Source of the DNA: Corynebacterium mustelae
Lineage (GTDB): Bacteria; Actinomycetota; Actinomycetes; Mycobacteriales; Mycobacteriaceae
Direction of reading: 5' to 3'
NCBI RefSeq assembly: GCF_001020985.1
Contig: NZ_CP011542.1
Coordinates: 2,604,001 to 2,668,000, forward strand
Length of the DNA: 64,000 nt
The notes under the pieces were generated by a model. It had not been told where the DNA came from. It saw nothing but the letters and a program-made list of their open reading frames with translations, and did no database searches. Each line of letters begins with the position of its first letter. Within the stretch, counting starts at the first letter, position 1. Positions 5,072-61,085 of this stretch are shown here, piece by piece. The position numbers were made by a program, and so were the translations under genes.

Positions 5072-5109
5072 GGCGTCGACAAGCTGTATCGCCATTGCTT
5101 GTCGACGCC
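5072..5109. terminator. Bidirectional terminator-like hairpin made of two copies of the GCTTGTCGACG motif
   Basis: A perfect 13-bp inverted repeat, GGCGTCGACAAGC (5072-5084) and GCTTGTCGACGCC (5097-5109), with a 12-base loop, sits between the convergent mycolyltransferase and DUF5692 genes. There is no clear U-tract. Each arm carries one copy of the 11-mer GCTTNTCGACG that recurs through the window. Confidence 0.75.
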
Positions 5110-5144
5110 ACCCTGGTTTCATTTAGCCACCTGTACCCAAAGAC

Positions 5145-6530
5145 CTAGGCGTTGAGTTGTGGGATATGAGCAATACCCTTCACATCCCAGCTAGGGTCGG
5201 ATTCAATTCCCTTGTCCACCAACGCCGGGTCAGCTGCAAGCGGTGTGCGCAACTTCGGGTACCGATGATCCTTGTGCCACCACGGCATGGTGCCCACCCA
5301 ACCGTCGAGCGGCGGCGTTGTTGTCTCTGGCTGGTAACCCAATTCCGTCGGAGTTTGTCTAATCATGTCGGTGACAAAATACTTATCCGCATCGTCAGCA
5401 TGTTCCCGCATGATGGTCTTGAATTCACCCAATTCAAAATACAACGCATTGGTCAATGGGTTTCGCTTGGTACGGACAATCTTGTATAACCAGTAGCCAA
5501 ATAGCGCCACGTTAGATACCAACGCTGCCCATGCACATACTTGGTTTGCTACCGGATTCATGGTGGAGAAATTTGTCATGGCAGACGGCGGCACCAAGAA
5601 TTCCGGTAAAAGATTATTAGCGGCGATCCAGAACATCAGTGTAAAGCACCTAAACCAAATCCACTGCCCCTTAGCCCACGTAAAGGCAGGTATCGTGCAG
5701 GCCAGTAACAATGCCAGGGTGCAATACCAGGTGTAATCGGACAATGCGTTATATAAAAACGCGTGGTTCCATAGGTCATAAGCAATAACCCACGGCCATA
5801 CCATATCCACCCAGATCAACCCACGTACTTTCTGGTTGGCGTTGGATGTAATAAAAATCTTGCCCAAGCCAGTGATCGTAATGATATTGAGCACCCCAGC
5901 CACAGCAGTGATGAGGTTCCAATAACCGCCAATGGTTCGGAAGCCTGTCTCCGGGTCAATTCCGACCCCGGCTGCGGCGAAATTGGCTGCCACAGCGGCA
6001 TACCACCCATCAGTGCCGACAGCTTCCGAAACACCACGGGTTTCCGGCAGACCATTGATCATGTCGATACCAACATGGGCGTCGTTGATAGCTTTTAAGC
6101 ACTGCGGGTCAGCCGCGCAGCGCAGGTATTCTTCAGCATGGAAATATATGGTGACGTCTCGGATATTGGCTTCCATGATGTTCATGGCTAACCCGACCCA
6201 GAGTGCTACTCCGAACCAAACTGCATATCGATGAGCTTTCAGCGGATTGCGCTTTCCGTACCACAATAGGTAGCCGGTCATCGTGGCGGTAGCCACCATG
6301 ATGACGTATTTACCAAACGGGAACCACCCCACCATGGGGGTACCATGCAAGGCAGCATACGGCATCAGCGCGATTCCGCCGATAGTCCACATAGCAAAAA
6401 CCGTCCAATTCCAGCGGCGGTTAATTTCCGCCACTATCACCTGGGCCAGAAATACTATGATCCACAGGAGATAAACAGTGGGAGTTCCTATTTCCCACAA
6501 AAATAACGAAGACACAATCGTCTCCTTCAT
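5145..6530 (-). CDS. DUF5692 family polytopic membrane protein, long form
   Basis: A 461-residue integral membrane protein with about ten hydrophobic segments, recognised as DUF5692 by its resemblance to the 357-residue paralogue at 17981-19054. Shared landmarks are GWFP, NIxEAxIRD, YWNLI/PWNLM followed by AAGVLN or AVAGVLN, AYDxWN, WYxxxALLxACTIP and a C-terminal RRNPLT or KRNPLT. This copy has an insert of about 60 residues after the FHAEEYLRC region, and a soluble Pro/Trp-rich tail of about 70 residues that the paralogue lacks. It is divergent from the SRPBCC gene at 6796. No function is established for the family that I can support here. Confidence 0.75.
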   Translation of the reverse strand: MKETIVSSLFLWEIGTPTVYLLWIIVFLAQVIVAEINRRWNWTVFAMWTIGGIALMPYAALHGTPMVGWFPFGKYVIMVATATMTGYLLWYGKRNPLKAHRYAVWFGVALWVGLAMNIMEANIRDVTIYFHAEEYLRCAADPQCLKAINDAHVGIDMINGLPETRGVSEAVGTDGWYAAVAANFAAAGVGIDPETGFRTIGGYWNLITAVAGVLNIITITGLGKIFITSNANQKVRGLIWVDMVWPWVIAYDLWNHAFLYNALSDYTWYCTLALLLACTIPAFTWAKGQWIWFRCFTLMFWIAANNLLPEFLVPPSAMTNFSTMNPVANQVCAWAALVSNVALFGYWLYKIVRTKRNPLTNALYFELGEFKTIMREHADDADKYFVTDMIRQTPTELGYQPETTTPPLDGWVGTMPWWHKDHRYPKLRTPLAADPALVDKGIESDPSWDVKGIAHIPQLNA

Positions 6531-7833: not shown

Positions 7834-7855
7834 TTTTTAGCAGGTCAGACTAGGC

Positions 7856-9742: not shown

Positions 9743-10783
9743 GTGTTCAAAGCCATTGAATGGGTTGAGTCCCCGCAAGAAGCCATCCGGCTACTTGATC
9801 AAACCGCACTCCCATCCGTCGAAAAGTATATCGACATTATCGAAACTGCTTCCCTAGTCGACGCGATTCAACGTCTTGTTGTCCGAGGCGCACCTGCACT
9901 TGGCGCTTCCGGTGCCTACGGTGTAGCCCTTGCCATGTCCGAAGCCGCGCGCAACAACTGGACTAAAGACCAATTGCAAGAAGCAATCCAATCCGTGCGT
10001 GATGCCCGCCCCACCGCTGTCAATCTCGCCTGGGGAGTAGACCAAGTACGTGATCTCGTACCCGATGGCATCGAAGCTGTTCTCACCGCCGCGCACCTCA
10101 TCGCGGAGGCAGATGTGGCGAATAACAAGAAACTCTCGGAGCTCGGTGCTGATTGGATTTTAAAAAAGACCGGAAAAGACAAGGTCCGGGTGATTACCCA
10201 CTGCAACACCGGCGGACTTGCCACCGTCGGCTGGGGTACTGCGCTTGGCATCATCCGCGAACTACATGATCGTGGGGCGCTAGAAATCGTCTATGCGGAC
10301 GAAACCCGGCCTCTGCTACAAGGAGCCCGCCTGACCAGCTGGGAGCTGAAACAACTGGGCATCGACCATTTCGTCGAAGCCGATGGTGCGGCTTCCTCCA
10401 CGATTCTCCGGGGGCTTGTCGACGTCGCAATCATTGGGGCCGACCGCATCACCGCTAATGGCGACACCGCAAACAAAGTCGGCTCGGTTGCACTCGCACT
10501 CGCCTGTCAACGCGCCGGTATCCCCTTCGTTGTCGCCGCCCCCGCCTCCACCGTCGATCTTGATACCGCCACCGGTGACGGTATCCACATCGAACTGCGC
10601 ACGGACAGCGAGGTCCACGAATTCCAAGGAATGCGCGCCACTCCCGAAGGTGTCAAGGGATTTAATCCCGCCTTTGATGTCACGCCGTTCGATTTGATCT
10701 CCGCCATCGCCACCGAAAACGGCGTGGCAGAACCAGCCACCGCCAATGATCCCCGTGTGATGGAAACAGTCGTCACACGTTAA
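9743..10783 (+). CDS. mtnA: MtnA-like aldose-1-phosphate isomerase (5-deoxyribose-1-P or 5-methylthioribose-1-P isomerase)
   Basis: A 346-residue member of the MtnA / eIF2B-like isomerase family, which converts 5-methylthioribose-1-P, or 5-deoxyribose-1-P in the DHAP shunt, to the ribulose-1-P form. Family motifs are present: RGAPALG, HCNTGG with catalytic-type Cys154, DETRPLLQGARLT, and IGADRI with Asp234, plus GDTANKVGS. The GTG start is preceded by a G-rich ribosome binding site. It is the first gene of a plus-strand operon followed by a sugar-binding lipoprotein, ABC ATPase, permease and MtnK-like kinase. No methionine-salvage genes downstream of the isomerase step are present, so disposal through the aldolase at 7918 is more likely than recycling to methionine. 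Confidence 0.88.
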   Translation: MFKAIEWVESPQEAIRLLDQTALPSVEKYIDIIETASLVDAIQRLVVRGAPALGASGAYGVALAMSEAARNNWTKDQLQEAIQSVRDARPTAVNLAWGVDQVRDLVPDGIEAVLTAAHLIAEADVANNKKLSELGADWILKKTGKDKVRVITHCNTGGLATVGWGTALGIIRELHDRGALEIVYADETRPLLQGARLTSWELKQLGIDHFVEADGAASSTILRGLVDVAIIGADRITANGDTANKVGSVALALACQRAGIPFVVAAPASTVDLDTATGDGIHIELRTDSEVHEFQGMRATPEGVKGFNPAFDVTPFDLISAIATENGVAEPATANDPRVMETVVTR

Positions 10784-12002: not shown

Positions 12003-13583
12003 ATGTCTAACCACACCGACCAAGCGGTTTTGTCACTGGAAAACCTGGAAAAGTCCTTCGGCAAAAACCAAGTTCTCAAAGGTGTTTCCTTCACACTGCA
12101 CCCCGGCAAAGTCACAGCGTTATTGGGGGCAAACGGGGCAGGAAAATCTACCCTCATCAAGGTGCTTGCCGGTTTGTACCCGCCTTCTGGCGGCACCGTC
12201 TATGTGGGCACCGACCCGGTGACGATCACCAGTCCGCGCGACGCTGATGCGCACGGCATTCAGGTTGTGCACCAGCGAGTGTCCGATTCCATCGTGCCGG
12301 GATTAACGGTGGCGGAGAATCTGTGTTTCGAGGAAATTGCCGCTAACGTTATCCACCCATTAACCAGCCCGGGCAAAATCATGGATCGGGCCCGAGAGAT
12401 CATAGCCACCTTGGAATTGGAGTGGGATGATTCCTTCCTGCGCACAGACGTCGCGGACTTAGGCATCGCCGATGGGCAGCTACTCCTGCTGGCTCGGGCG
12501 TTGATTCACCAGCCAAAGGTCCTTATTTTGGACGAGCCCACCTCTACCCTTTCGCATAGCGAAGTGGAGCGACTGTTTGAAAAAATTCTGTGGCTGAAGA
12601 AAAACGGTGTGGCTATCTTGTACGTCTCGCACCGCATGGGCGAGATTGCCCGCCTAGCAGATGATCTAGTGGTGTTGCGCGACGGCCGGATTGTATTCGC
12701 CGACACCCGCCCCTTTGAATTAGGCCGCGCCATCGATGCGATGTTGGGCACCCAACCGACCGCAGCTGGTGCGGTCGGTGGCGTTGCGGCCGCCGGGGAT
12801 GCAGCAGCAACTTCCTCCGATTCGGAGCACATCGTCGTCGAGGAGCAGCGCGGCACCGAGGTGACGATCGAGCTTTTCGACGTCCAAGTGCTCCCGCGCA
12901 GCGCACCGTTTGATTTGGAAATCCGCAGCGGTGAAGTAACCGGCGTCCTGGGTCTGATCGGCTCCGGAAAAACCGAGCTTGCCATGGGAATTTACGGGGT
13001 GCGCCCCTATATCGCAGGTTCCATCAAACTCCACGGCCAGCCGTTTACACCCCGCCACCCCCACGATTGTGTGGCGCGTGGAATCTACCTGGTTCCGGAG
13101 GACCGGGTGGAACAAGCAATGCTTCCGGATTGGAGCATCGCCGACACAGTGAACCTGCCGTTTTTGCATCGGGTCAGCACGAACGGAGTATTAAGTGCCC
13201 AAAGGCAAGCCCTCGTTGGTGAAAAAGTCATCGATAACCTGGGCGTAATCTGCACCGACGTTCACCAAAGTGTTGATTCGCTATCCGGAGGTAATCAACA
13301 GAAAGTAGTCGTGGGCCGGTGGTTGGTTAATGACCCGCAAATCTTCATTCTTGACGAACCATTCCGTGGCGTTGATATTGGTGCCCGCCGTGAAATATCC
13401 CGCCAGTTGCGCGAACTGGCGGCGGCTGGCGCAACAGTGCTGGTCTTGTCCTCCGATGTCGACGAAATCCGGGAGGTCTCAGACCGGGTATTGGTGTTGG
13501 TCGATGGTTCAGTCCGGTTGGATTCCTATAACAGCGAACTTGCATTTGACACAATCGTTGCAACTATGTCGGAGGTAGCATAA
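12003..13583 (+). CDS. Sugar ABC transporter ATPase with two nucleotide-binding domains (RbsA/XylG type)
   Basis: A 526-residue fused double ATPase of the carbohydrate-uptake-2 family. Domain 1 has Walker A GANGAGKST and Walker B LILDEPTS with a degenerate signature (LGIADGQ). An Ala/Gly-rich linker spans about residues 250-275. Domain 2 has an atypical Walker A GLIGSGKT, a consensus signature LSGGNQQK and Walker B FILDEPFRG. One full and one degenerate site is usual for RbsA relatives. The gene abuts the permease ATG directly (stop 13581-13583, start 13584), indicating tight coupling. It lies 92 bp after the binding protein, where I see no clear promoter. Confidence 0.9.
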   Translation: MSNHTDQAVLSLENLEKSFGKNQVLKGVSFTLHPGKVTALLGANGAGKSTLIKVLAGLYPPSGGTVYVGTDPVTITSPRDADAHGIQVVHQRVSDSIVPGLTVAENLCFEEIAANVIHPLTSPGKIMDRAREIIATLELEWDDSFLRTDVADLGIADGQLLLLARALIHQPKVLILDEPTSTLSHSEVERLFEKILWLKKNGVAILYVSHRMGEIARLADDLVVLRDGRIVFADTRPFELGRAIDAMLGTQPTAAGAVGGVAAAGDAAATSSDSEHIVVEEQRGTEVTIELFDVQVLPRSAPFDLEIRSGEVTGVLGLIGSGKTELAMGIYGVRPYIAGSIKLHGQPFTPRHPHDCVARGIYLVPEDRVEQAMLPDWSIADTVNLPFLHRVSTNGVLSAQRQALVGEKVIDNLGVICTDVHQSVDSLSGGNQQKVVVGRWLVNDPQIFILDEPFRGVDIGARREISRQLRELAAAGATVLVLSSDVDEIREVSDRVLVLVDGSVRLDSYNSELAFDTIVATMSEVA

Positions 13584-15934: not shown

Positions 15935-16083
15935 TGTCGCTTTTCGACGCCGCCCGTGCTAGTTGTTCATCGTCGTGGTCGTGCGGTGAAGGGTTGTTGG
16001 AGAGCTTGCGTATAAGAAACCGGGGTGGTTACGCTGACCCATGTAACCAAATGTCGAAACATTTAGACGAATGGAGTTTTAGT

Positions 16084-19430: not shown

Positions 19431-21269
19431 ATGCGTTCGTTTTTCCAAATTTTCTCCACCACCCGCACGTTGTGGCCGCTGTATATCGCGGTAACGCTCA
19501 CCTCCGTGGCAACAGCGCTCCTGGCGTTGGTCACGCCGTTTTTGGTGCGGGAAGCCACCGACGTCATCGTCGCGGCGGTCGGCGGGGAACCGACCAACTC
19601 GCAGCTTTCACCGACCACCATCGTGTTGCTGTTGGCGCTGGGACTGCTTGCCGCGGAGGTGGGCAACACCATCGTGCATAATATCGGCGGCTACATCGGC
19701 GACGTGTTGTCCGCCCGGCTGCGGCAGATTCTCTCGACCCGGTATTTTGCAAAACTCCTGTCGCTGCCGCAGGGGTATTTCGATAATCAGGTCACCGGCA
19801 CAATCATTGCCCGACTGGATCGATCGATCACCTCGATCACCAGTTTCGTCCAGGGTTTCGCCAATAACTTCTTCTCCATGGTTTTAACGGTTGGCGCGGT
19901 TTTGGCGGTCACGGCGTATTTTTACTTCCCCATCGCGGTGCTTCTAGCGATCGTCTTCCCGATTTACATGTGGCTTACCGCACTCACCAGTAGCCGGTGG
20001 CAAAAGTGGGAGGCGGAAAAGAACGAGCAGATCGACGCCGCCAGCGGCAGGTTCGCAGAGGTTGTCGGCCAGGTGAAAGTGGTGAAATCCTTCGTTTCCG
20101 AAATCCAGGAATTAGCCCTTTTCGCCCGCCGGTTCGCCCGCACGATCACCGTCACCACACGCCAATCCCGGTGGTGGCATCTGATGGACATCGCCCGGGG
20201 TTTGGCGGTGAATGCGATTTTCTTCGGCATCTACCTCCTACTTTTCCGCCGCACGTTAACCGGTGATTTCTCTATCGGCACGATGGTTCTGCTGATCCAA
20301 TTGGTCACGATGGCTAGACAGCCGATTTACCTCATGAGTTACCTGGTGGATACCGGGCAACGCGCGGTTGCTGGTTCCAAGGATTACTTCGCCGTCATGG
20401 CGCAGATACCGGAACCCACCGCTAACCCCCAGCTCGTTGCCGCCGCAACCGCCAGCGGCCCGCTTTCGCTTGTCGACGAACCCCCAACACCCCTTTCACC
20501 CGGCGAACCCGTATTGCGGCTTAGCGGGGTGTCCTTTACCTACCCCGGCGACGACCAAGAAACCCACGAGGTGCTTCACGACGTAAGCTTCGTCGCCCAC
20601 CAAGGGCAACGCATCGCATTGGTAGGGGAATCGGGTGGTGGCAAGTCCACCCTGGTTAATCTGATCCTTGGACTCTATTCCCCCACCGCTGGCACGCTGG
20701 AGGTCTGCGGCCACGATATTGCAGGCGTTCCCGCCGATTCACTACGCGCCAGCGTCGGCGTGGTATTTCAAGAAGCAAGCTTGTTCTCCGGCTCCATTAA
20801 GGAAAACATCGCCTATGGCCGTCCCGGCGCGACTGACGCCGCGATCATCACCGCCGCCCAGAAGGCGAATGCCCACGATTTCATCGCGGAGTTTGCTGAT
20901 GGTTACGACACCATCATTGGTGAGCGTGGTCTGCGGCTATCAGGTGGGCAGAAGCAACGCGTCGCAGTCGCGCGCGCCATGCTCAAGAACGCGCCGGTTT
21001 TGGTTCTTGATGAGGCCACCTCCGCACTGGACACCAAAAGCGAACGCGCCGTGCAGCAGGGGTTAGAAGAGCTCATGGAAAACCGCACCACGCTGATTAT
21101 CGCCCACCGGCTTTCCACCATCGCTGATGTTGATACCATCATCACCCTCAAAGACGGCCGCGTTGATGAGATCGGCTCCCCCGCGCAGCTCGCCACCACC
21201 GGCGGCATCTATTCGGAACTACTAGCGATAACCGATAAGGAGAAACTCAAGAGCTTCGGATTGCAGTGA
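19431..21269 (+). CDS. ABC exporter half-transporter (fused permease-ATPase, MsbA/multidrug type)
   Basis: A 612-residue type-IV ABC exporter subunit. The N-terminal 330 residues carry six predicted membrane helices and an ABC-membrane domain with the GYFDNQVTGTIIARLD coupling region. The C-terminal ATPase has Walker A GESGGGKST, Q-loop VFQEASLFSGSIKENIAYG, signature LSGGQKQRVAVARA, Walker B VLVLDEATSALD and H-loop IIAHRLST. Only one half-transporter is encoded here, so it probably works as a homodimer. The start has a modest AAAAGG site. Substrate cannot be inferred; neighbours give no pathway clue. Confidence 0.9.
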   Translation: MRSFFQIFSTTRTLWPLYIAVTLTSVATALLALVTPFLVREATDVIVAAVGGEPTNSQLSPTTIVLLLALGLLAAEVGNTIVHNIGGYIGDVLSARLRQILSTRYFAKLLSLPQGYFDNQVTGTIIARLDRSITSITSFVQGFANNFFSMVLTVGAVLAVTAYFYFPIAVLLAIVFPIYMWLTALTSSRWQKWEAEKNEQIDAASGRFAEVVGQVKVVKSFVSEIQELALFARRFARTITVTTRQSRWWHLMDIARGLAVNAIFFGIYLLLFRRTLTGDFSIGTMVLLIQLVTMARQPIYLMSYLVDTGQRAVAGSKDYFAVMAQIPEPTANPQLVAAATASGPLSLVDEPPTPLSPGEPVLRLSGVSFTYPGDDQETHEVLHDVSFVAHQGQRIALVGESGGGKSTLVNLILGLYSPTAGTLEVCGHDIAGVPADSLRASVGVVFQEASLFSGSIKENIAYGRPGATDAAIITAAQKANAHDFIAEFADGYDTIIGERGLRLSGGQKQRVAVARAMLKNAPVLVLDEATSALDTKSERAVQQGLEELMENRTTLIIAHRLSTIADVDTIITLKDGRVDEIGSPAQLATTGGIYSELLAITDKEKLKSFGLQ

Positions 21270-21277: not shown

Positions 21278-22395
21278 CTATCCCTCCAGCTGGAACTCGA
21301 TCCTGGGCCCGGGATTTCCGCTGGCCTGCACAACGAGCGCATGGTCGCCTGGATACAACGTGCGGGTTTTAACTTCTTTAAACGAGTGGCGTTTTCGCAG
21401 TTCAACCTTATCCCCTGCCGCTATAGTCACCCTTGATAGTTTAAAAACCGTGGGCTTGAGCAAGCCATCGGCTTTCCGGTAGTGCAGCTGATAATCAACG
21501 ATCACGTCGCGGTCGACATCGCCATCGTTACGCACCACCACCGCAATTTCAGCACCGGTTCCGATACGCGGATTCACTGGTGTGATACTGCACTGCTCGA
21601 CGTACACCTGCGGGTCGGCCTGTACCCCGATAACCGCCAGCGCCTCCGGGTGCCCGGTTTTAATAAGACTTCGCAATCCCTTTTCCACTATCCACCGGGT
21701 TCGTGGACTATTGCTGTTGGCAAGCCATTGACGTGCGGTTTCCACCGCATAATCGGGGTGATCTTTGGAAATGTCGTTGAGATTATTTGCAACAGACGTC
21801 CGCACGTAAGCCGATGGGTCGTCGATAAGCACGGTGATGACATCAATGATCGGCTGCGGGTTGGCGATAAACGGCGCAAACCGCCCGGCCCACGGCAATC
21901 GGCTGCGAATCCCCTCGCTGGCAAGCCTGCGCACGTTATGGCTTTTCGACGTCGACCACCGCTTAACGTGCGCCATCGTCAGATCGTGCCACCGATCCAA
22001 AACGGCCGGATGGCGAACTCCCCCGTATGCCGCCTGGTTATCTGTTCGATCGCCGCGAGCGACTGCTCAGGGTGGTCCCCGCCGTAATCCTCAACCAATT
22101 GCGCAACCGGCATCAGATACCAGGATTCGGTGAACATCCCCTGGTCCTCGCGCAACTCCGGCCCCAAGGACGCAACTAAAATGTCCAGCTTTTCGACGTA
22201 ATCACCCGGCAACCGTTCGTACAATTCCCGGGCGATAATCCGAACCCGATCTTTTAATTCCAAATCGGGAATCTGCCGCTCCACCGCGGCGCAGAAATCT
22301 TCCACATCCACGCCACCAGCCCGATCCCCCACCATCGCGCAGATCCTTCGGACGCAGTCACCATCAAAGTGTCTCTTCAACGAGTAATCGGACAT
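21278..22395 (-). pseudogene. AlkD-like DNA alkylation repair (HEAT-repeat glycosylase family) gene, frameshifted
   Basis: Two overlapping minus-strand frames make up one HEAT-like DNA alkylation repair protein. The upstream frame (ATG 22395) gives the N-terminal 140 residues and ends after FAIRPF. The downstream frame continues as LDRWHDLTMAHVKRWSTSK with NVRRLASEGIR and AYVRTSVANNLNDISKDHP repeats, then a C-terminal beta domain (VFKLSRVTI, KRHSF, LYPGDHALVVQ). One extra base in the A4 run at 21999-22002 would join them into about 370 residues. Relatives excise alkylated bases. The gene is convergent with the ABC exporter, 8 bp apart. It is either a recent null mutation or an assembly error. 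Confidence 0.75.
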
Positions 22396-22463
22396 ACCAA
22401 ACAGGCTACGCGAAGAGGCGAGCACCTGGTTCGACGTTCATACGGGACAATCACGCGCTTGAA

Positions 22464-22710: not shown

Positions 22711-25635
22711 TTACAGATTCCAATCTTCCGGAGTGGACTTTGCATATTGAATACCAATCGCATCAAAATGACGACGTGCAGCCTTAATCTTTGCCCGTTC
22801 CGCTGGACGCAATGAATTCGGATCTGCTGTACTCTTTGTCTCGCGAATCATGTAAATACGATCCTGCCCATTTTCGTGTTTCAAAATCGCCCAGTCAGGA
22901 TTATAAGCACCAACTGGAGTATCGATTTTAAACTTTGGCGGCAGCTTCATAAACAACTTGATGTCTTCGCGGTTATCGAGCAATTCAGCAAATTGCCTTT
23001 CTGTATCTGAGTCATAAACCACGTAATCAAAGTCGGTCTTTTCCTGGTTTTTCACCTTATACATGGCATCAATAAAGAACTGCTTTTCTTCTTCTCCATC
23101 GCGCATCAATTCCCGCAGAGCATACACACTACCGTTCTCGAGTTGCTCATACTGGACACCATCAATAACAATTTCGGCGAGAGCTTGCGTAATGCAGTCT
23201 TTCACCATCTTGATGAAATCATTTGGGTTCGCCAAAAACTGTCCAAGCTTTCCGCTGCCGATCAGAATATCAATGATGGTTTTTCGGGTAAGTGACGTGG
23301 CCTCTTGCAGTTCCCCAATAATGTCGGGAAGATCATAGCTACCTTGGAGACCCGTCTCTCGCTCACTGACGGCTACGCCTTTTGCCCCACCACGAGTCAG
23401 TTCTAATTTCGCCTTCGTTACCCTGATTCGTAGCGGTTTAATATCCTCCCGTTCCTCAATGTTCGCGATAGCATTCTTGATCAGTTCGTCTCGATCAACA
23501 CGAACGGAATATGTCGTTTTCCTACTAATCGAATTCCAGAACTCTTCAAATAATTCTGAATTATAGATCCGTTTATTTAATTTACGAGTCTTGCGTTTTT
23601 CCGTTCTCTTCACAAACCGTTCAATATTGAGATCCTTGATCTTTTGGATGACAAACGGCTCCAGCCATGACAACTCACTTGGAAGGTCCAGAGTAAAACC
23701 AGTCTTGTCAGGTGTAAAAAGATCCGTTAAATGCCCGTCTTTATCGATGAACCCCTTGCGCCGCAGTTCTTCCCATACAAGCTCCGATTCAACATATCCG
23801 ATCACTTCATTTTCGGTATCCGGAACAGGGATTTTTGCGAATTCTTCACGACGCACAACACCGATTTTGACCCCGGCCTTTTCGTATTCTTTTTGCAAGA
23901 ATTTCGCGAAGCTCTGGTAGCTTTCGTCGGCAATCACGGTTAACTGAGCAACTGACCTGTCGATCACACGTGCACCACTGCTATCAACAGGCAAGCGCAA
24001 TCCACGCCCAATTGTTTGGCGCCGTTCCGTTTCCTGCCCCATTTCCCGCAAAGCGCAAATTTGGAAAACGTTTGGATTATCCCACCCTTCGCGAAGCGCC
24101 GAGTGGCTAAAAATAAACCGCACTGGTTCATCTTCGGAAAGAAGTCGAGCTTTATCTTTCATGATGAGCTCGTAGGAATCGTGGTCAGCTTTCGATTTAC
24201 CAGTTGTGTCGTTGAATACGCCTTTTTTAATTTGCGAAAAATAGGATCGGCGGTATTCCTGAGGCGAATCGGGAAATAGCTCACGCAGCTGTTGTCCTAG
24301 TTTGTCTCGTTCTTCTTTGAAAATCTCATCAAACCACTGAGCGAATTTACCATCAGCCGTGTCATTTGAAACACCATTACCGAGGAAATTGGCTACTTTG
24401 TCCACGAAAAACAGGCTTAGAACTTTTATGCCTTTAGACCGAAGAAGAAGATCCTTTCGGAAGTGTTCACGAATTGTCTCACGAATCATTTCCTTGTAGA
24501 TTCCATCCTGGTTTCCGCCAGTTTGCTCACCTACGGCTAATCTACCGAAGTGGTTAAGCTCGATATTTTCTGGCTCGATCGATATTTCAGTTATTCGCCA
24601 ATCTGTATAGGCATCGTTACCAGTTAGCCGAGCAAGCTCTTGATCGGGTTTCACCCAAAGCTGTTTTCGAGTTAATTCTCCTTTAGCATTTCGAATCGCA
24701 AGTTCAAGCTTCGCTTTGAATGGGTTCCCTTTGACTTCAATTAATTTTATGTATGGCGCAGCGTCAGCCCCCACCTGAACAGCTTCTGATACAGCAATTT
24801 GCTTAACCAAGTTCAGTTCATGGGCGGCAACTGGATCGAGTTGGTACACAAGATTTCTTTTTTTACGATGCGTCGCCGAATACCGCAAAATAGCCGTCGG
24901 CTCAAGATCACCGATTGATGTTTTGGATAAAACCGATTCCATGTTTTGCGGTTCATCCATGATGACAATTGGATGTACAGCTTGTAAGAAATCCACTGGC
25001 TTTAATCCGTTTAGTTTATCTCTTTGCTGGTGAAATACACGATGATTAGTATCACCTTTGATCGAGTCGATAGTCACCACCATAATTTGGATTGATGTTG
25101 CAGTCGCAAATGAATGAACTTCCTCCGGATTACTTCCGGAGTAAACAAAGTGGTCAAAGTTCAGCGACGGATAGAGCTGGGCAAAGTGACTCCGCATCAG
25201 TTCGATACTCGTGTTCACTCCCTCTCGGATTGCAACACTTGGCACCAAAATAACGAACTTCGTGAAATTGTATTTCTGAGCCAACTCAAAGATAGTGCGT
25301 AAGTAAACATAGGTCTTTCCAGTGCCTGTTTCCATTTCTACGTCGAATTGCAATCCATCAATCAATTGGTTGGAAATTGGCAAACCATTTCGTTCTTGAA
25401 CCCTTTTTAGGTTCTCAAGGATCATGCCTTCACTCAGCACCAAGTTGTTTCCTACTGCACCAATTTCCTGTTGGATATCCAACGCAATTTGGTCCTCGGG
25501 CATGACCATGCCAGCCCTATGCGTGATTAAATCTACAAAGTTTCCATCAATCTTTGGTTGCCCCTCAAACAGATCAATAATCGAATTAATAGCATCGACC
25601 TGATATTGCTGGTTGCTTTCAAACTTGAACTTCAT
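22711..25635 (-). CDS. Type III restriction enzyme Res subunit (DEAD/DEAH helicase-nuclease)
   Basis: A 974-residue Res-type protein. The helicase part has motif I METGTGKT (101-108), motif II DEPQ (227-230) and SATH (253-256). The C-terminus carries a PD-(D/E)xK nuclease site, PD (913-914) with ETK (932-934). The complex of Res with Mod would translocate on and cut DNA lacking Mod methylation. It starts 12 bp after the mod stop with a GGAGAAG site, so the two are co-translated. The region is markedly more AT-rich than the flanks and lacks the GCTTNTCGACG motif common elsewhere, suggesting horizontal acquisition. Confidence 0.9.
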   Translation of the reverse strand: MKFKFESNQQYQVDAINSIIDLFEGQPKIDGNFVDLITHRAGMVMPEDQIALDIQQEIGAVGNNLVLSEGMILENLKRVQERNGLPISNQLIDGLQFDVEMETGTGKTYVYLRTIFELAQKYNFTKFVILVPSVAIREGVNTSIELMRSHFAQLYPSLNFDHFVYSGSNPEEVHSFATATSIQIMVVTIDSIKGDTNHRVFHQQRDKLNGLKPVDFLQAVHPIVIMDEPQNMESVLSKTSIGDLEPTAILRYSATHRKKRNLVYQLDPVAAHELNLVKQIAVSEAVQVGADAAPYIKLIEVKGNPFKAKLELAIRNAKGELTRKQLWVKPDQELARLTGNDAYTDWRITEISIEPENIELNHFGRLAVGEQTGGNQDGIYKEMIRETIREHFRKDLLLRSKGIKVLSLFFVDKVANFLGNGVSNDTADGKFAQWFDEIFKEERDKLGQQLRELFPDSPQEYRRSYFSQIKKGVFNDTTGKSKADHDSYELIMKDKARLLSEDEPVRFIFSHSALREGWDNPNVFQICALREMGQETERRQTIGRGLRLPVDSSGARVIDRSVAQLTVIADESYQSFAKFLQKEYEKAGVKIGVVRREEFAKIPVPDTENEVIGYVESELVWEELRRKGFIDKDGHLTDLFTPDKTGFTLDLPSELSWLEPFVIQKIKDLNIERFVKRTEKRKTRKLNKRIYNSELFEEFWNSISRKTTYSVRVDRDELIKNAIANIEEREDIKPLRIRVTKAKLELTRGGAKGVAVSERETGLQGSYDLPDIIGELQEATSLTRKTIIDILIGSGKLGQFLANPNDFIKMVKDCITQALAEIVIDGVQYEQLENGSVYALRELMRDGEEEKQFFIDAMYKVKNQEKTDFDYVVYDSDTERQFAELLDNREDIKLFMKLPPKFKIDTPVGAYNPDWAILKHENGQDRIYMIRETKSTADPNSLRPAERAKIKAARRHFDAIGIQYAKSTPEDWNL

Positions 25636-25647
25636 TCTGCTTCTCCC

Positions 25648-27579: not shown

Positions 27580-27612
27580 TTTTCTTCCTCTCGTTCAATA
27601 CTGTTATGAGAA

Positions 27613-45461: not shown

Positions 45462-45575
45462 TTGAAGGGACACTCCACTGGAATACAAAAAGACGTTAAG
45501 AACGCGCCAGGATTTTCTGGTACGAAAACCACAAAGCAGACGGAAAATATGAAACCTAAAGTAAATTATCTTACT

Positions 45576-49052: not shown

Positions 49053-49667
49053 ATGAGTATGAGTCTCCGCAGGGACGCCAAACCCGCAACGACGCCGACC
49101 GCTGGCCGCCCCTCCCGCGCGCCCAAACCCACCGGCTTTCTTAATAAGATGCTGCGCTGGTTCAAGCGTGACCACAATGACCCCCTTGATGAGGGACTCA
49201 CCATGTTGTATTCCCGGCTGGGACTACACGAAACCACCGTACCCACCGATATTCGTCAAGAAAACTTCGCCGAGTTCACCGTCTGCCCCGCCGCAGCCTG
49301 CCCCCGTAGTCTTTTTTACGCCCCAAATATGGACGGCCATGTCGACCCCGGCGAGATCGTGTGGTTCTGGGTCGCACCGGACGATCAAACCGGATCGCTG
49401 ATCGAACGCGCCTTGGTCGTCGTTGGTCGCCACGGAGATATGATCATCGGGCTACTCACCTCCCCCAATCCCAGCCATGCGGATTCCACAAACTGGCTCG
49501 ACATCGGCGCGGGCCCGTGGGACGATGCTGGACGGCAATCCTGGGTACGGCTGGATAAAGTGATTAAAGTCCCGGAAACCGCTATTCGACGCCAAGGGGC
49601 CGTCATTCCGGAACATCGGTTCAATCGCATTGCCAATCGGCTGCGCTCCGACCACGGTTGGGCTTAG
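49053..49667 (+). CDS. PemK/MazF-like fold protein
   Basis: A protein of about 204 residues with a basic, Pro/Ala-rich N-terminal region and a C-terminal PemK/MazF-type domain: GEIVWFWVAPDD, ALVVVGRHGDMIIGLLTS, WLDIGAGPWDDAGRQSWVRLDKVIKV. Canonical MazF toxins are about 110 residues and paired with an antitoxin; here there is none, and the gene occupies a conserved housekeeping position. It is more likely a cellular RNA-related protein than an active toxin. The start is uncertain: ATG 49053 is taken, with 49020 and 49059 possible. Confidence 0.75.
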   Translation: MSMSLRRDAKPATTPTAGRPSRAPKPTGFLNKMLRWFKRDHNDPLDEGLTMLYSRLGLHETTVPTDIRQENFAEFTVCPAAACPRSLFYAPNMDGHVDPGEIVWFWVAPDDQTGSLIERALVVVGRHGDMIIGLLTSPNPSHADSTNWLDIGAGPWDDAGRQSWVRLDKVIKVPETAIRRQGAVIPEHRFNRIANRLRSDHGWA

Positions 49668-50182: not shown

Positions 50183-52279
50183 CTAGCTGCGTTTTATCCC
50201 AGTAGCAACGGCCTTCGCCCGTTCGGCGTTCGCTGGGTTGCTAATGGCCTCAAAGGCGAGTTCGGTGGATTTCTTCGAGAACTCGGTTTCGGCCAGTTCC
50301 CCGTCCCCGGTGAGAAGCTGCGCCAAGCACTGGCCAACTTTCACATCGGCGACCTCACCGGTCACCGCACGATTTAATGGTTGCCCCTGGTAGAGCGGAA
50401 TAGATTGTTCGACGGGAGGTCGGTAATCAGCGGCCAGTTCCGTAGCCACCTGAATGGCCATGTCACGCAGATGTTTGCGTGAGGCGACGATCCTGTCACT
50501 GGGCCGTAATAGGCAGTTGTCTTGGGCATCAAAGGCGGTCTGGAGGCGTGCGGCGGACATTGCAAAGTCGAACACCGCCTGATGCGGGTTTTTCGTTCCG
50601 GCTTCTAAATGCCGGATCAGGTGCTGCACTACCCCGCCCCAGCCGGGAAAGATTCCGACGCTTCGTTCGGGAAAACCGAGTTTAGTATCCACGTGTGCCA
50701 CCACGGTATCGGCGTGCAACATCAGTTCCGCACCACCACCCAGTGTTATCCCGTGCACGGCCGCCACCACCGGAAACGGCGCAAACTGGAGCTTGCGGTA
50801 AACGGACACACCAATATCGATGAAACCTTTGCCGCCAGTGACTAGGCTGCTTAGTTCAGCACCCGCGCTAAAGGCCTTGGGGTCATTGGATGTGATGACT
50901 AGTCCGCGCAGATCGGATTCAGCCGCGGTGTTGAGGGCGGCAAGCACATCGGTGGTGATGATCCCCAGTTTCGTGGTGATGGTTAGCACCCCGATCCCGG
51001 AGGGCAATCGGGTTAGGGTGGCTGCAGGCGATGTGGCAAGGACCTCCCCCGATTCGGCTTTCGCCGGGGAATCGGAGCTAAACGCCTGGTAGAAGCCACC
51101 CGCCGCGACGGCTTCGAGTAGAAGCGAGGGCGGGTTGTCGTCGAAAAGCGAGACGATGGTGTCCACGCCGATAGCGTCCGCCAACGCGAAGGGCCCGCGC
51201 TGCCAGGAATAACCAAGTTCCATGCCCGCATCAATATCGGCGATAGTATTCGCAATGTCGTGGGCGTGGTCGCAGCAATAGCGTAGGGTTTCTACAAACA
51301 CCTGGCGTGCGTAATCATTGCTGGTGACCAGCTGTATCAGGTCGGTGGGAATGGTGACCTGCCGCTTGGGTCGATACTCGAAGGTGGAATCAATCACCTG
51401 ATCCGGGCCGTTATAGAAGCCAGAATCCCCGGTGCGCCCAGTCAACCCCCGCTCAATCAGCCCGGTAAAGAGCGGATGTTCCACGACGTTGTATTTTTGG
51501 AGCGCGTCGGTCGCCGGAAGCGTGTTATGCAGACTTCTCCACACGTCGGGAACGAGTTGCAGGCCGATGTAATCGAAAAGCCCGAACACGCCGGTGCGCG
51601 GAATTCCGAACGGTTTACTGAAAACCGCGTCAGCGTATTCCGGATCAATGCCCGAATCCAAGGCGATGCGGGCGGCCACCGCCATCCAAAAATTGCCGAT
51701 CCGGTTGGCGATAAACCCAGGCGTATCGCGGCAAATAAGCACGCTTTTGCCGAGCTGCCGCTCGATGACGTCGATAAGCCAGCCCATGAGCGGGGCGTCG
51801 GAGGTTGCGGCGACCACCTCAACCAACGGCATAACCCGAGGCGGATTGAAGAAATGCGTGATGAAGAAATTGCTGCGGTGCTCCTGCGCCAACTCGGCGC
51901 TTAGCTTGGCCAGCGGAATCGTGGAGGTATTGGAACTCAGGACGGTATCGGGGCCTAAAAACGGCGCGATTGCGGCATATAGCGACCGCTTGGCATCAAG
52001 GTTTTCAAAAATCGCTTCGATAACCCATTGTGCATCCGCAACCACTGCAAGGTCATCTTCGGAATTTCCGACCGTGATATTCGCCGCGAATTTTTTATGG
52101 AAGAACCCGCCGCGTTTGAGTTGCAGGTCGACGGCCGCGCGGGCTCGGGCGTTGCGGTCTGGCCCGTCGGCGGGCATATCGAGCAGATGCACCTTCACGC
52201 CGGTACTTGCTAATAGCGCGGCGATGCCGGAGCCCATGGAACCGGAGCCGAAAACCACTGCGGTTTGTAGATCTGTCAT
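50183..52279 (-). CDS. Bifunctional 3-hydroxyacyl-CoA dehydrogenase / enoyl-CoA hydratase (FadN-type domain order)
   Basis: A 698-residue beta-oxidation enzyme. The N-terminal half is a 3-hydroxyacyl-CoA dehydrogenase with NAD motif VVFGSGSMGSGIAALLAS, SSNTSTIPL, HFFNPPRVMPLVEVV and DTPGFIANRIG. The C-terminal half is a crotonase-type hydratase with the oxyanion region AAVHGITLGGGAELMLHAD and LGFPERSVGIFPGWGG. This dehydrogenase-hydratase order matches Bacillus FadN rather than E. coli FadB. The start at 52279 overlaps the thiolase stop (ATGA) and has AGGAG upstream. It is the last gene of an operon with thiolase and acyl-CoA dehydrogenase. Confidence 0.92.
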   Translation of the reverse strand: MTDLQTAVVFGSGSMGSGIAALLASTGVKVHLLDMPADGPDRNARARAAVDLQLKRGGFFHKKFAANITVGNSEDDLAVVADAQWVIEAIFENLDAKRSLYAAIAPFLGPDTVLSSNTSTIPLAKLSAELAQEHRSNFFITHFFNPPRVMPLVEVVAATSDAPLMGWLIDVIERQLGKSVLICRDTPGFIANRIGNFWMAVAARIALDSGIDPEYADAVFSKPFGIPRTGVFGLFDYIGLQLVPDVWRSLHNTLPATDALQKYNVVEHPLFTGLIERGLTGRTGDSGFYNGPDQVIDSTFEYRPKRQVTIPTDLIQLVTSNDYARQVFVETLRYCCDHAHDIANTIADIDAGMELGYSWQRGPFALADAIGVDTIVSLFDDNPPSLLLEAVAAGGFYQAFSSDSPAKAESGEVLATSPAATLTRLPSGIGVLTITTKLGIITTDVLAALNTAAESDLRGLVITSNDPKAFSAGAELSSLVTGGKGFIDIGVSVYRKLQFAPFPVVAAVHGITLGGGAELMLHADTVVAHVDTKLGFPERSVGIFPGWGGVVQHLIRHLEAGTKNPHQAVFDFAMSAARLQTAFDAQDNCLLRPSDRIVASRKHLRDMAIQVATELAADYRPPVEQSIPLYQGQPLNRAVTGEVADVKVGQCLAQLLTGDGELAETEFSKKSTELAFEAISNPANAERAKAVATGIKRS

Positions 52280-53442
52280 AACGAAACTCCTGGGTTTTCT
52301 AATACCACCGCGATGCCTTGCCCGCCACCGATACACATGGTGACCAGGCCATAGCGGAGGTTGTGCCGCTGCATGTGGTAGATAGCTTTCACGGTCAGGA
52401 TCGCACCGGTTGCCCCGAGCGGATGCCCCAATGCGATCGCGCCGCCGTTGGGGTTGACGATCGCCGGATCGAAACCAAGCTCCCGACTCACGGCCAGCGC
52501 TTGGGCGGCAAATGCTTCATTCGATTCGATGACCCCAATATCGGCAAGACTAATCCCCGCCTGCGCGAGCGCCTTCGGCACCGCCGGAATTGGCCCCAGC
52601 CCCATGAGATGCGGTGCGACACCAGCCACCGCCCAGCCAGCGATGCGCGCCAACGGGCTTAGGTTGTGGGTTTTCACCGCGCTTGTCGACGCCAACACCG
52701 TAAACGCGGCGCCGTCGTTGATGCCAGAGGAGTTTCCGGGAGTCACCGTTCCATCTTTTTGGAAGGCAGGACGCAGCCCACTGAGCTTTTCGACGGTGGT
52801 GGGGCGCGGGTGTTCATCACGGCTAAAGTCCCCCACGGCGACTATTTCGGCGTCGAAAAGCCCAGCATTTTGCGCCTGCGCGGCACGTTCTTGCGACAGT
52901 GCGGCAAATTCATCCTGGTCGTGCCTGCTAATCCCAAGCTCAGCCGCGATATTCTCGGCGGTAATCCCCATATGCACCTGATCGAATGGACAATTAAGAG
53001 TCCCGATCATCCAATCGCGGTTCATGCTATCGCCCATCCGGACCCCGTGACGCAATCCAGTTACCGAATAGGGAGCATTACTCATGGATTCCACACCACC
53101 GGCAAGCGCAATATCCGCAACGCCGTGGCAAATTTCCAGGGCGGCGGAGACGATCGCCTGCGCCCCGGAACCGCATAACCGATTGACGTTAAACGCGGCG
53201 GCACCTTCGGGTACACCCACCTCACGGCCCACCATTCGGGACAGGTACAGGTCTTCCGGCCGGGTTGGGATCACATTGCCGACAACCACCGAACCAATGT
53301 CGGCTGGCGAAACATGGGCACGCTCGATTGCAGCGGCCGCCGGAATGGCCCCTAGTTCCGCACAGTTCAGCCCCGCCAGCGATCCGTTAAATTTCCCGAT
53401 GGGTGTCCGAGCCGCACCAATAATAAATACATCTTCGTGCAT
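52276..53442 (-). CDS. Acetyl-CoA acyltransferase (thiolase)
   Basis: A 388-residue thiolase that releases acetyl-CoA in the last step of beta-oxidation. It has the nucleophilic Cys in NRLCGSGAQAI, the NEAFAAQAL motif, HPLGATGA with its catalytic His, and the C-terminal Cys in TMCIGGGQG. The ATG at 53442 is chosen for its AAGGAGG nine bases upstream; an open extension upstream overlaps the acyl-CoA dehydrogenase gene and has no family support. It starts 28 bp after the dehydrogenase and overlaps the downstream gene by four bases. Confidence 0.93.
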   Translation of the reverse strand: MHEDVFIIGAARTPIGKFNGSLAGLNCAELGAIPAAAAIERAHVSPADIGSVVVGNVIPTRPEDLYLSRMVGREVGVPEGAAAFNVNRLCGSGAQAIVSAALEICHGVADIALAGGVESMSNAPYSVTGLRHGVRMGDSMNRDWMIGTLNCPFDQVHMGITAENIAAELGISRHDQDEFAALSQERAAQAQNAGLFDAEIVAVGDFSRDEHPRPTTVEKLSGLRPAFQKDGTVTPGNSSGINDGAAFTVLASTSAVKTHNLSPLARIAGWAVAGVAPHLMGLGPIPAVPKALAQAGISLADIGVIESNEAFAAQALAVSRELGFDPAIVNPNGGAIALGHPLGATGAILTVKAIYHMQRHNLRYGLVTMCIGGGQGIAVVLENPGVSL

Positions 53443-57076: not shown

Positions 57077-57565
57077 TTAGCCAGCCAATGCCCGCAGACG
57101 CTCGGCTAATTCAGTTTGCCCAAACATATCGGCACAGGCGATTGCGTCGGGGTGGCCTGCTAGTGGGTTCGCGCCAGCGTCGATAAGCGCTTCAACAACG
57201 GCTGTTTCCTTTTTGAAAATAGCGCCCGCCAGTGGCGATTGCCCCCGGTCATTCAGTCGGTCCACGTCCGCCCCTACCTTAGCTAAGGCAGTCACGATGT
57301 CGGCATGCCCATTGTATGCAGCCAGCATCAGCAGGGAGTTTCCTTCATGGTTGGTCAGATTCGGGGACAGCCCAGCCTCCACGTATTGCACCAAATGCTC
57401 GGCGGCACCGGGGCCGCCGTTGCGGGCGAGATTAAAAAGTTTGGCTACGAATTGCTGCAATTCTGGTGGAAGTTCAGCGCTATCCTCCGGGGCAGCATCG
57501 TCGTTGATGGTGGCGTTGGCATAGGATTGTTCAAGTTCTTCAGAAGACATGGGCTTTTCAGACAT
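57077..57565 (-). CDS. Ankyrin-repeat protein
   Basis: A 162-residue cytoplasmic protein. An acidic N-terminal third is followed by about three ankyrin repeats: NHEGNSLLMLAAYNGHADIVTALAKVGADVDR, then NDRGQSPLAGAIFKKETAVVEALIDAGANP, and a capping repeat. Such repeats mediate protein binding. It is 18 bp downstream of holA and may be co-transcribed with it. No partner can be named. Confidence 0.85.
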   Translation of the reverse strand: MSEKPMSSEELEQSYANATINDDAAPEDSAELPPELQQFVAKLFNLARNGGPGAAEHLVQYVEAGLSPNLTNHEGNSLLMLAAYNGHADIVTALAKVGADVDRLNDRGQSPLAGAIFKKETAVVEALIDAGANPLAGHPDAIACADMFGQTELAERLRALAG

Positions 57566-58584: not shown

Positions 58585-60300
58585 TTAAAAACTCCCATCC
58601 ACCGCATGTTGAGTACCGTCGCTATACACAATGACGCCCGGAGCCTGATCGACAAAGATTACCGGGATACCCTCTCGTGTAATGGTGGGGCGGTGAATTG
58701 GTTTCACCTGTACGCCCCGGCGCGCTGGCGGAGCGCGTAACACCAAAACAGCTTCGGTACCTGGTGGTATTCCGTCGCTTCGCCCGTCGCGGTTCACGTC
58801 GCGTCCGAGTTTTTCTAATTCCTTGATGTCTGAAACCGTAACGGTTAATAGGCTTCGGGGGTCGCGTGGCTGTGGGCGACTGAGATCTAACGGTTGGCTA
58901 GGAATGACCACCATCGCAATGATTAGTACTATCAGGGTTTTAAACAACCGCCGATACAGTAACACCACCACCCAGCAGGCGGCGAGCAGTGCCCACCAGA
59001 AAGCAAAAGGCGAATCGATGCTAAGTTGCGCCCCAGGCAAGCGGGCTGTGGTTTTAGCGATAAACACCACCCACTGTGCTAAGGGATCTAAAAGAAGAAT
59101 CAGCGGCATGGCGATGCTGGGGTGGATGATACTTAATACAACAGACGCCATTCCGAGCAAGGTGATGGGCGCAACCACCGGTGCGGTGAGGATGTTTGCC
59201 AGCACCGCAACAACAGAAATGGTTCCGCTCATGGTGGCGACAATCGGCATGGTGACCAATTGGGCAGCTAATGCCACGGCTAACGCCCGTAGGAGGATGG
59301 CAGGAACTGGAAGTAAAACGAAAAATCTCAGTAGAACTGGGTAAAGAAGCAGGATTCCTGCGGTTGCGGCTACCGATAATATAAATCCGAAGTGTGAAGC
59401 CAAACTTGTATCCCACAACAGCAACCCGATAATCGTCAGCGCTAGACCATGAATCGGGGTGCTGGTGCTGGAAGCAACAACCGCCACCACAGCTGCCACG
59501 CTGGTGACCGTGGCACGTAATACCGAAGGTTCTGGGCCTACTAGTGTCACGAATGCAAGCATGGCAACCAGCACCACACAGCTACGTAGCAGCAACGTTA
59601 ATCGGGCTGCTACCAGCGCCACACAGGTCGCAACGATCGCCACATTGGCACCAGAAACCGCCGTGAGATGCGCCAAGCCGCTTGCTTTCACAACCTCGCT
59701 AAATTCCGCCGATTGCGCGGTGGTATCTCCTAGCACCATGGCGGGAATGAGCGCGGCTGCATCCCCCTCAATATAGCGTGATACTGCGTGAGTAAAGCTG
59801 GTGTTGATCGCGTTGCTGACCGCATGGGTTATGTGTGGAGACGCAAGTATGTGCCAGTCCTGGGCTGTAATAAGGATGTGGCTTAATCCGATCCGATTGC
59901 TCGTTACCACGTTGCCTGTGATTTCTATCGTGGCACCGGGAGGCATATTAAGCGGTGTATCGGACATGACCGGAATATACGTTGGGTAATCCGCAACTCT
60001 AATGTCCTGCACCCAACCGCTGTTAGTGCGCCTGGGTCGTGATACTGCCGTTGCGATGATGGTTCTTGCCCATTCATACTGATCCACTTGCCGCACCCGC
60101 ATCAGGGAAATCATAAGTGTGCTCGATCCCAGCAGCCCGCACATAATCGCCTGGCCGACATCAACTTTCAGGCAACCGATGAGCGAAATGCCGAAAACAA
60201 TCACCACGATCCAAAGACCGCTACCGCCGCGCAGCCAGATCGCAGCAAAGCTTAGTGCCCACACCACCAAGGCACTAGGTGCCAGCCGCCATTGCGTCAC
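58585..60300 (-). CDS. comEC: ComEC/Rec2-family DNA channel protein without metallo-beta-lactamase domain
   Basis: A 571-residue membrane protein with about ten hydrophobic segments and the competence-domain signature HLTAVSGANVAIV. ComEC forms the inner-membrane channel for single-stranded DNA in transformation. The C-terminal metallo-beta-lactamase domain seen in Bacillus ComEC is missing. Instead there is a soluble tail of about 100 residues with an EF-hand/dockerin-like loop (DVNRDGRSDG). The GTG start overlaps the comEA stop by four bases, so the pair is translationally coupled. Natural transformation in this organism is not proven by these genes. Confidence 0.88.
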   Translation of the reverse strand: MTQWRLAPSALVVWALSFAAIWLRGGSGLWIVVIVFGISLIGCLKVDVGQAIMCGLLGSSTLMISLMRVRQVDQYEWARTIIATAVSRPRRTNSGWVQDIRVADYPTYIPVMSDTPLNMPPGATIEITGNVVTSNRIGLSHILITAQDWHILASPHITHAVSNAINTSFTHAVSRYIEGDAAALIPAMVLGDTTAQSAEFSEVVKASGLAHLTAVSGANVAIVATCVALVAARLTLLLRSCVVLVAMLAFVTLVGPEPSVLRATVTSVAAVVAVVASSTSTPIHGLALTIIGLLLWDTSLASHFGFILSVAATAGILLLYPVLLRFFVLLPVPAILLRALAVALAAQLVTMPIVATMSGTISVVAVLANILTAPVVAPITLLGMASVVLSIIHPSIAMPLILLLDPLAQWVVFIAKTTARLPGAQLSIDSPFAFWWALLAACWVVVLLYRRLFKTLIVLIIAMVVIPSQPLDLSRPQPRDPRSLLTVTVSDIKELEKLGRDVNRDGRSDGIPPGTEAVLVLRAPPARRGVQVKPIHRPTITREGIPVIFVDQAPGVIVYSDGTQHAVDGSF

Positions 60301-61085
60301 AACGTAACCTCTTCGGCAATCGCACTGAACTTGGCTGGCCCGATGCCTTTGACTTCTTGGAGTTGCTCAACGCTGGAAAACCCGCCGTGGCTTTCCCGAT
60401 ATGCCACGATCGCCTGCGCGGTTTTCTCCCCTACCCCGGGAAGCGTGGTTAATTCCGTTACCGTGGCCGTGTTAATCGAGAGCTTTCCCACCATGCCACC
60501 GCCCACCGCTCCGCTTATCGATGCCCCTTGTCCAGCAAAAAGTTGAGGCGGCGCCGTAACCGGGTCGTCAACGTGGGGGACGAATATCTGTTCGCCGTCG
60601 ACAAGCTTCTGCGCGAGGTTCAACCCCAGTGTCGCCGCCTGCGGTTTCAACTGAGCTTTCTCCAGTGCGTCTGCGACCCGGGCATTGTGGGCGAGTGTGA
60701 TCAGACCGGATTGTTCCACCTCGCCGACGACACTGACAACAATGCTTGTCGACGCCGCCGCTTCATCGCTAATCGGATTCCTCTCAGCCCCAGCATGTGG
60801 TGGTATGTGCCGATCAGGCAGTGACGAATGCGCCGAGGCGATCGATACTGGAACTGGTGTTGAGGTTTCGGTGAAAAGATTCCAGGCCACAGCAAGCACT
60901 GAGACGACAGCGATCACAAACCCTAACGCCAGCGCCGCCCGGGGATTAATTCGCCACTGGATGTCAGCTGGTACGGGAAAATTCACCGCTAGTTCTTCTT
61001 CTGTTCCTAGCGGAGCGGTAATGTCACCCAATCGTTGCCTCACTGATGCGGCAACCTCATGACGTAGAAAACCGAAACGTCTCAT
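60297..61085 (-). CDS. comEA: ComEA-like DNA-binding receptor (SLBB and helix-hairpin-helix)
   Basis: A 262-residue membrane-anchored DNA receptor. A cytoplasmic N-terminal stretch of about 45 residues precedes one membrane segment (AALALGFVIAVVSVLAVAWNLF). An SLBB domain follows (VVSVVGEVEQSGLITL to QIFVPHVDDP), then two helix-hairpin-helix motifs (LSINTATVTELTTLPGVG and FSSVEQLQEVKGIGPAKF). It hands DNA to ComEC. It is the first gene of the comEA-comEC pair. Confidence 0.9.
   Translation of the reverse strand: MRRFGFLRHEVAASVRQRLGDITAPLGTEEELAVNFPVPADIQWRINPRAALALGFVIAVVSVLAVAWNLFTETSTPVPVSIASAHSSLPDRHIPPHAGAERNPISDEAAASTSIVVSVVGEVEQSGLITLAHNARVADALEKAQLKPQAATLGLNLAQKLVDGEQIFVPHVDDPVTAPPQLFAGQGASISGAVGGGMVGKLSINTATVTELTTLPGVGEKTAQAIVAYRESHGGFSSVEQLQEVKGIGPAKFSAIAEEVTL

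Follow-up and report, generated by a model that had tools for sequence, protein, structure and literature searches.

The 64,000-nucleotide stretch of the Corynebacterium mustelae chromosome analysed here (contig NZ_CP011542.1, positions 2,604,001 to 2,668,000; hereafter the window) carries many copies of an 11-mer, GCTTNTCGACG, which is dispersed over the whole genome. We propose, at a probability of roughly 0.8, that this motif serves natural transformation as a DNA-uptake sequence which arose independently in the Actinobacteria. The first-pass annotation of the window had raised this idea, and it is now the best fit to the copy number, the lack of polarity, the restriction to the genus, the dialects, the absence from one plasmid and one phage contig of the assembly and the presence of com and tad genes.

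In the window, GCTTNTCGACG occurs in 25 exact copies, 14 on the plus and 11 on the minus strand, with G (13), T (9) or A (3) at the variable position N; 100 dinucleotide shuffles of the same DNA gave a mean of 0.19 copies and a maximum of 2. The first-pass annotation had spoken of a very high frequency on the basis of 24 copies, every one of which was recovered at its start, and the excess is in fact larger than noted there. Its counts of G, T and plus-strand copies stand; A occurs 3 times rather than 2 and the minus strand holds 11 copies rather than 10, since the copy at 21820 had been overlooked. The motif-free gap that it described at 22.2-32.2 kb is real (22198 to 32187) and, taken alone, is a weak signal (P about 0.026).

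Over the assembly (3,474,226 bases in three contigs) we counted 1242 copies (625 plus, 617 minus), against 31 (15 plus, 16 minus) for the reversed motif, which served as control. When position 5 was also left free (GCTTNNCGACG), the genome held 1682 copies and the control 87. Statistics were performed on a sample of 445,554 bases, composed of 19 stretches of 20 kb, one of 1,554 bases and the window; in the comparison with a Markov model that had been proposed at first pass, this sample showed 155 copies where 1.75 are expected (order 3).

A motif of this kind could arise secondarily from codon usage, base composition or mutational bias, and both the prevalence of the Leu-x-Asp frame (61 of the 120 wholly coding copies) and the lower density in AT-rich tiles would be in keeping with it. 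However, when codons were shuffled synonymously 60 times within each of 418 predicted reading frames, as a test of the Leu-Val-Asp codon-pair explanation, the shuffles yielded a mean of 3.65 coding copies and a maximum of 10, compared with 121 observed. Copies occupy all six gene-relative frames and are denser in gaps (0.66/kb) than in coding DNA (0.30/kb), as expected from the earlier remark that they fall in several frames and between genes. The reversed control stays at background, and no copy was found on either the plasmid or the phage contig of this assembly. A codon-pair or composition artefact is thus rejected by the Markov model and the synonymous shuffles, the first-pass dismissal of codon bias holds, and we regard this explanation as having next to no chance of being right.

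The consensus of the motif reads (not G)-GCTT-(T>G>A)-(mostly T)-CGACG, with C preferred at +11, +12 and +15. One-base variants of the CGACG right end occur at Markov expectation, whereas enrichment is seen for A at position 0 and for every base at position 5, and past about -1 to +15 the flanks contain little information. The last point bears on the possibility that the copies are remnants of a dispersed mobile repeat with an 11-mer core. Their large number across the genome would suit such an origin; nonetheless, with flanks so little conserved a longer dispersed repeat is rejected, 120 of the 155 sampled copies lie wholly inside predicted genes, and there are two dialects, each genome-wide in its own species. 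We consider this origin very improbable.

The GC skew of the 3.39-Mb chromosome changes sign near 1.7 Mb, and the 445-kb sample holds 76 copies on leading and 79 on lagging strands. Forward and reverse counts are also even over the 173 motif-bearing genomes of the genus described below (z mean -0.01, standard deviation 0.79). Chi and KOPS (FtsK-orienting polar sequences) are, as is generally known, likewise short over-represented chromosomal motifs, but they are polar and the Corynebacterium motif is not. The balance on both replichores and the even counts across the genus therefore exclude oriented signals of the Chi or KOPS type, in agreement with the first-pass judgement for the window, where the strands stand at 14 to 11.

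The motif was found on neither of two mobile elements of the same assembly. The contig C2 (39.9 kb; L181, L182) has 0 copies where 14.6 are expected, and the contig C3 (L183, L184) has 0 in 40.0 of its 42.8 kb, again with 14.6 expected. Among 10 proteins scanned, C2 encodes RepA, a TrwC relaxase and two coupling-protein-like products, which mark it as a plasmid; further genes code for a Fic-domain protein and for a C5 cytosine methylase. C3 carries phage genes for terminase, portal, head protease, major head, tape measure and endolysin. The sole motif-free stretch among the 19 sampled 20-kb chromosome stretches (L006, G000:C1:910001-930000) is a prophage stretch with 100% identity to C3 over 20 kb; L006 is thus an integrated copy of the C3 phage, and the two count as one observation and not as a further independent case. 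C3 is perhaps the excised or packaged form of this prophage. A search for near relatives of the L181 (C2) and L183 (C3) sequences found no near match, and three corynephage genomes hold 1 copy in 130.6 kb. These results disfavour a cell-wide mutational cause.

To describe the distribution in the genus, 242 Corynebacterium genomes were counted. A C dialect was called where GCTTNNCGACG reached at least 3 times the reversed control, and a T dialect where the one-base variant GCTTNNCGATG reached at least 200 copies; both thresholds were set by us, and some genomes are borderline. The C dialect is carried by 173 of the 242 genomes, at a median of 16.4 times the control. The T dialect, which came to light by sampling (GCTTNNCGATG in three of eight apparently negative genomes), is carried by 17, of which 16 are without C enrichment and one, G119, carries both; 53 genomes have neither. 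G119, with 1337 T and 352 C copies, is perhaps a lineage in transition. Borderline cases are G123, with 159 T copies; G272, G194, G178, G040, G187 and G107, below the C threshold at 1.8-2.8 times control; and G268, G231 and G251, above it at 3.2-3.7 times. Copies of GCTTNTCGACG are abundant in C. pelargi (639), C. silvaticum (658), C. glaucum (905), C. pilosum (879) and C. gallinarum (888), and scarce in C. phocae (2), C. jeikeium (10) and C. spheniscorum (13). The C. mustelae genome and three T-dialect genomes have the same accessory preferences, namely against a preceding G and in favour of C at +12 and +15.

Further dialects were sought in five motif-less genomes (100 kb each) and nothing comparable was found: the best word there reached z 10.2 (G281, CGACGCCGAC), compared with 31-48 for a genome's own motif. 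Forty genomes of other families of the order showed only background, never more than 2.6 times the reversed control. In one outgroup family, f3 (G062, G077, G098; L185-L196; 80 kb each), a weaker word, CGGCGTAC, is present in all three genomes with best z of 10.6-12.0; this word could stem from codon usage or be a further dispersed signal.

The dialects follow phylogeny and largely exclude each other. In a TadA tree of 41 species, which were picked by dialect and not at random, a one-gene tree with many open forks, all 15 over-threshold T genomes fall in one supported clade (98/99). The same clade also holds two motif-free entries and C. tuberculostearicum, a C-dialect species beside T-dialect sisters, while G123, labelled T, falls outside it; the T label needs five changes on this tree.

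These observations bear on the principal alternative, in which a protein that organises, repairs or recombines the chromosome binds the motif (a nucleoid protein, or an unoriented Chi-like signal) and selection keeps it in place. Copies are densely and fairly evenly spread along the chromosome and missing from the plasmid and phage contigs, and recently acquired DNA would also be without such sites. On the other hand, Chi and KOPS act with a polarity that is seen on neither replichore, and such a site accords less well with the 53 motif-less genomes and with the change of dialect, because a genome-wide one-base replacement in whole lineages is a habit of uptake sequences (described in the accessible part of PMC3630211). 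This alternative is in our judgement unlikely, and less likely than an uptake sequence, although at first pass a nucleoid-protein site had been put on an equal footing.

Restriction offers another candidate, since the motif could be the recognition site of a methylase, a restriction system or a regulator, and the window does contain a type III restriction-modification islet. Its genes, assigned with Pfam, encode a Res-like helicase with an endonuclease domain, an N6/N4 methylase and a SNF2-type helicase. Type III sites are 5-6 bases long; moreover the islet is a local, GC-poor feature, while the motif is carried by most of the genus, and a 40-fold excess over the reversed control is not explained by a restriction site. 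We hold this explanation to be improbable.

Candidate machinery for uptake is encoded widely in the genus. A comEC match is present in 241 of the 242 genomes, tadA in 79 of 80, with one strong tadA match per genome, and tadV in 79 of 80, where 76 matches lie above the curated cut-off and the three weak ones are in motif-free genomes. The missing comEC match of the T-dialect genome G236 and the missing tadV match of the T-dialect genome G197 are assembly gaps or real losses. Sought only beside lepA, comEA was found in 70 of 80 loci, some of the remaining loci being short. Each of 20 loci compared, of which 10 belong to the C dialect, 4 to the T dialect and 6 to neither, contained Tad proteins. 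An actinobacterial precedent is Micrococcus luteus, in which, according to the accessible text of PMC4322843, transformation depends on a Flp pilus; its comEA/comEC and tad genes are of the kinds also seen in Corynebacterium. M. luteus needs two tad loci, where Corynebacterium has the single strong tadA match, and the terms "uptake sequence" and "sequence-specific" are absent from that paper.

Taking these data together, we hypothesize that a DNA-binding protein of the transformation apparatus, probably acting at the Tad/Flp pilus or at the ComEA step, prefers DNA bearing GCTTNNCGACG. Motif-bearing DNA would then enter more often and replace the homologous chromosomal stretch, so that copies born by mutation would spread through transfer bias to one per 2-3 kb. 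If the preference of the receptor shifted, a lineage would accumulate the new dialect GCTTNNCGATG, and if the specificity were lost, the copies would decay. Uptake followed by homologous replacement would raise the motif chromosome-wide, spare mobile DNA and ignore strand and frame. Uptake bias as the cause, and a pilus or com protein as the reader, are what we infer from this pattern, and a role of the Tad pilus in uptake is suggested by analogy with M. luteus.

Several observations weigh against this proposal. The genes comEC, comEA, tadA and tadV are about equally frequent in motif-free and motif-bearing species, so the presence of the machinery does not predict the motif, and as a cause of motif presence neither these four genes nor a neighbouring gene gave a clear correlation. 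No gene found in nearly all bearers and absent elsewhere was seen in the sampled com/tad neighbourhoods, where the 16 "motif-poor" lepA loci had been picked by local counts and include three (L036, L092, L023) from bearer genomes. The mature Flp of C. tuberculostearicum (C dialect) is identical by eye to that of four of its five T-dialect sisters, and Flp itself is therefore unlikely to be the receptor. Across the same switch from C to T, identity is 71-76% for TadF, ComEA, TadC, TadZ, ComEC and TadB, 83% for TadE, and 86-96% for TadA, Flp, helicase, HolA and LepA; a single switch cannot separate cause from drift, so this divergence does not single out a receptor. A search of the open-access literature, at the level of titles and abstract openings, showed no natural transformation of Corynebacterium. 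The absence from the plasmid and phage contigs would, taken by itself, also fit a chromosome-organising site. Copies are sparser, too, in the GC-poorest fifth of tiles (0.18 copies/kb, compared with 0.26-0.49 in the other fifths), and one-mismatch variants other than those named above are enriched only mildly.

Inverted pairs count on the same side: they are rare, and the one examined has no terminator pattern. This perfect pair at 5074/5097, whose arms enclose a loop of 12, is flanked by convergent reading frames and folds well (-27.6 kcal/mol, z -5.84). The first-pass annotation had taken it for part of a terminator, a use that we could not substantiate, as there is no T-run and a terminator scan of 4900-5300 was negative. 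Genome-wide, six such pairs with a loop of 3-20 were found in the one orientation searched, with N matching in all, where simple arithmetic from the copy density predicts about two; pairs in the opposite orientation are present in the 445-kb sample.

The features discussed are listed in Table 1. The six copies of the window that could be compared with the sister genome S30M_Sa_12 are all identical there (10.5 kb aligned), which at 94-97% overall identity is weak evidence of conservation. Elsewhere in the window, a DarT1-associated NADAR antitoxin-type gene (plus strand) adjoins an FRG-domain gene (minus strand) at 44586-46622, a pair whose predicted domains make it possibly an ADP-ribosylation defence or toxin-antitoxin module, and a 215-aa protein encoded at 49020-49667 (plus strand) has a weak PemK/MazF-like match. 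In the wider sample of loci, short words are locally frequent in L042 (GCGTNNGGGAA, 31 times), in L088 and L096 (CCGTNNGGGTA) and likewise in L025; these are probably clustered repeats.

Table 1. Motif copies in the window (positions of the window) and associated loci
Feature	Position	Strand	Evidence
Motif copy, N=G; left arm of inverted pair	5074..5084	-	exact match; hairpin fold
Motif copy, N=G; right arm of inverted pair	5097..5107	+	exact match; hairpin fold
Motif copy, N=G	10414..10424	+	exact match
Motif copy, N=T	12872..12882	+	exact match
Motif copy, N=T	15939..15949	+	exact match
Motif copy, N=G	20468..20478	+	exact match
Motif copy, N=A; overlooked at first pass	21820..21830	-	exact match
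Motif copy, N=T	21941..21951	+	exact match
Motif copy, N=T	22188..22198	+	exact match
Type III restriction-modification/helicase islet, inside motif-free 22199-32186	22711..30495	-	Pfam; composition
Motif copy, N=G	32187..32197	-	exact match
Motif copy, N=G	33763..33773	+	exact match
Motif copy, N=G; kept in sister genome	39098..39108	-	exact match; alignment
Motif copy, N=T; kept in sister genome	39284..39294	-	exact match; alignment
Motif copy, N=T; kept in sister genome	44736..44746	+	exact match; alignment
Motif copy, N=G; kept in sister genome	45401..45411	+	exact match; alignment
Motif copy, N=G, within lepA; kept in sister genome	48247..48257	-	exact match; alignment
Motif copy, N=G; kept in sister genome	48692..48702	+	exact match; alignment
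Motif copy, N=T	51139..51149	-	exact match
Motif copy, N=A	51769..51779	-	exact match
Motif copy, N=G	52681..52691	+	exact match
Motif copy, N=T	52785..52795	+	exact match
Motif copy, N=T	52851..52861	-	exact match
Motif copy, N=A	57178..57188	-	exact match
comEC, DNA channel of natural transformation, 571 aa	58585..60300	-	Pfam PF03772, E 1.6e-40
comEA, helix-hairpin-helix DNA-binding protein, 262 aa; contains motif copies 60596 and 60744	60297..61085	-	Pfam PF12836, E 8.4e-23
Motif copy, N=G, within comEA	60596..60606	-	exact match; Pfam
Motif copy, N=G, within comEA	60744..60754	+	exact match; Pfam
tad locus: tadZ, A, B, C, flp, tadE, tadF	C1:3222715-3227264		small-gene names from position and pilin-like sequence

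The closest parallels are found in two Gram-negative families, the only ones so far known to use a "self" label for taking up the DNA of kin. The DNA uptake sequences (DUS) of Neisseriaceae are 10-12 bases long, number hundreds to thousands of copies per genome and form lineage dialects that differ by a few bases (accessible parts of PMC3630211 and PMC7371117); the Corynebacterium motif resembles them in length, copy number, few-base dialects and scarcity in mobile DNA. The sequence is unrelated, however, and the phylum different; inverted pairs are few in Corynebacterium; and DUS are read by the minor pilin ComP, whereas Corynebacterium has a Tad/Flp pilus in place of a known ComP. The uptake signal sequences (USS) of Pasteurellaceae are similar in being short, dense and of two types (Hin and Apl), with a receptor yet to be proven (accessible part of PMC12616744). 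They too are unrelated in sequence and phylum, and for USS uptake has been shown experimentally, while for the Corynebacterium motif it is proposed from sequence. Among the papers listed by searches of the open-access literature, including 40 of 1,063 with letter strings of this kind, we found no report of the motif in Corynebacterium; the accessible part of a 2017 scan of spaced motifs names the genus for CRISPR repeats (PMC5217627). The motif may have been reported earlier elsewhere. Mobile islands of Neisseria have been detected by their shortage of the main DUS (PMC7371117, in its accessible part), and gaps in motif coverage could serve for finding islands in Corynebacterium as well.

We think it probable, on balance, that sequence-specific DNA uptake has had a third, independent origin, in the mycomembrane-bearing Actinobacteria, by way of a Tad/Flp pilus and a putative receptor, and that it has split the genus into at least two dialect groups, between which genes would be exchanged poorly. 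If so, the trick would have evolved again in another phylum, apparently with a different pilus, and most Corynebacterium species would be naturally transformable, now or recently. For this genus, whose members range from commensals of skin and mouth to pathogens and industrial strains, gene exchange would have a route open to testing and transformation experiments a tag ready for use, and the dialect map would predict which species can exchange genes.

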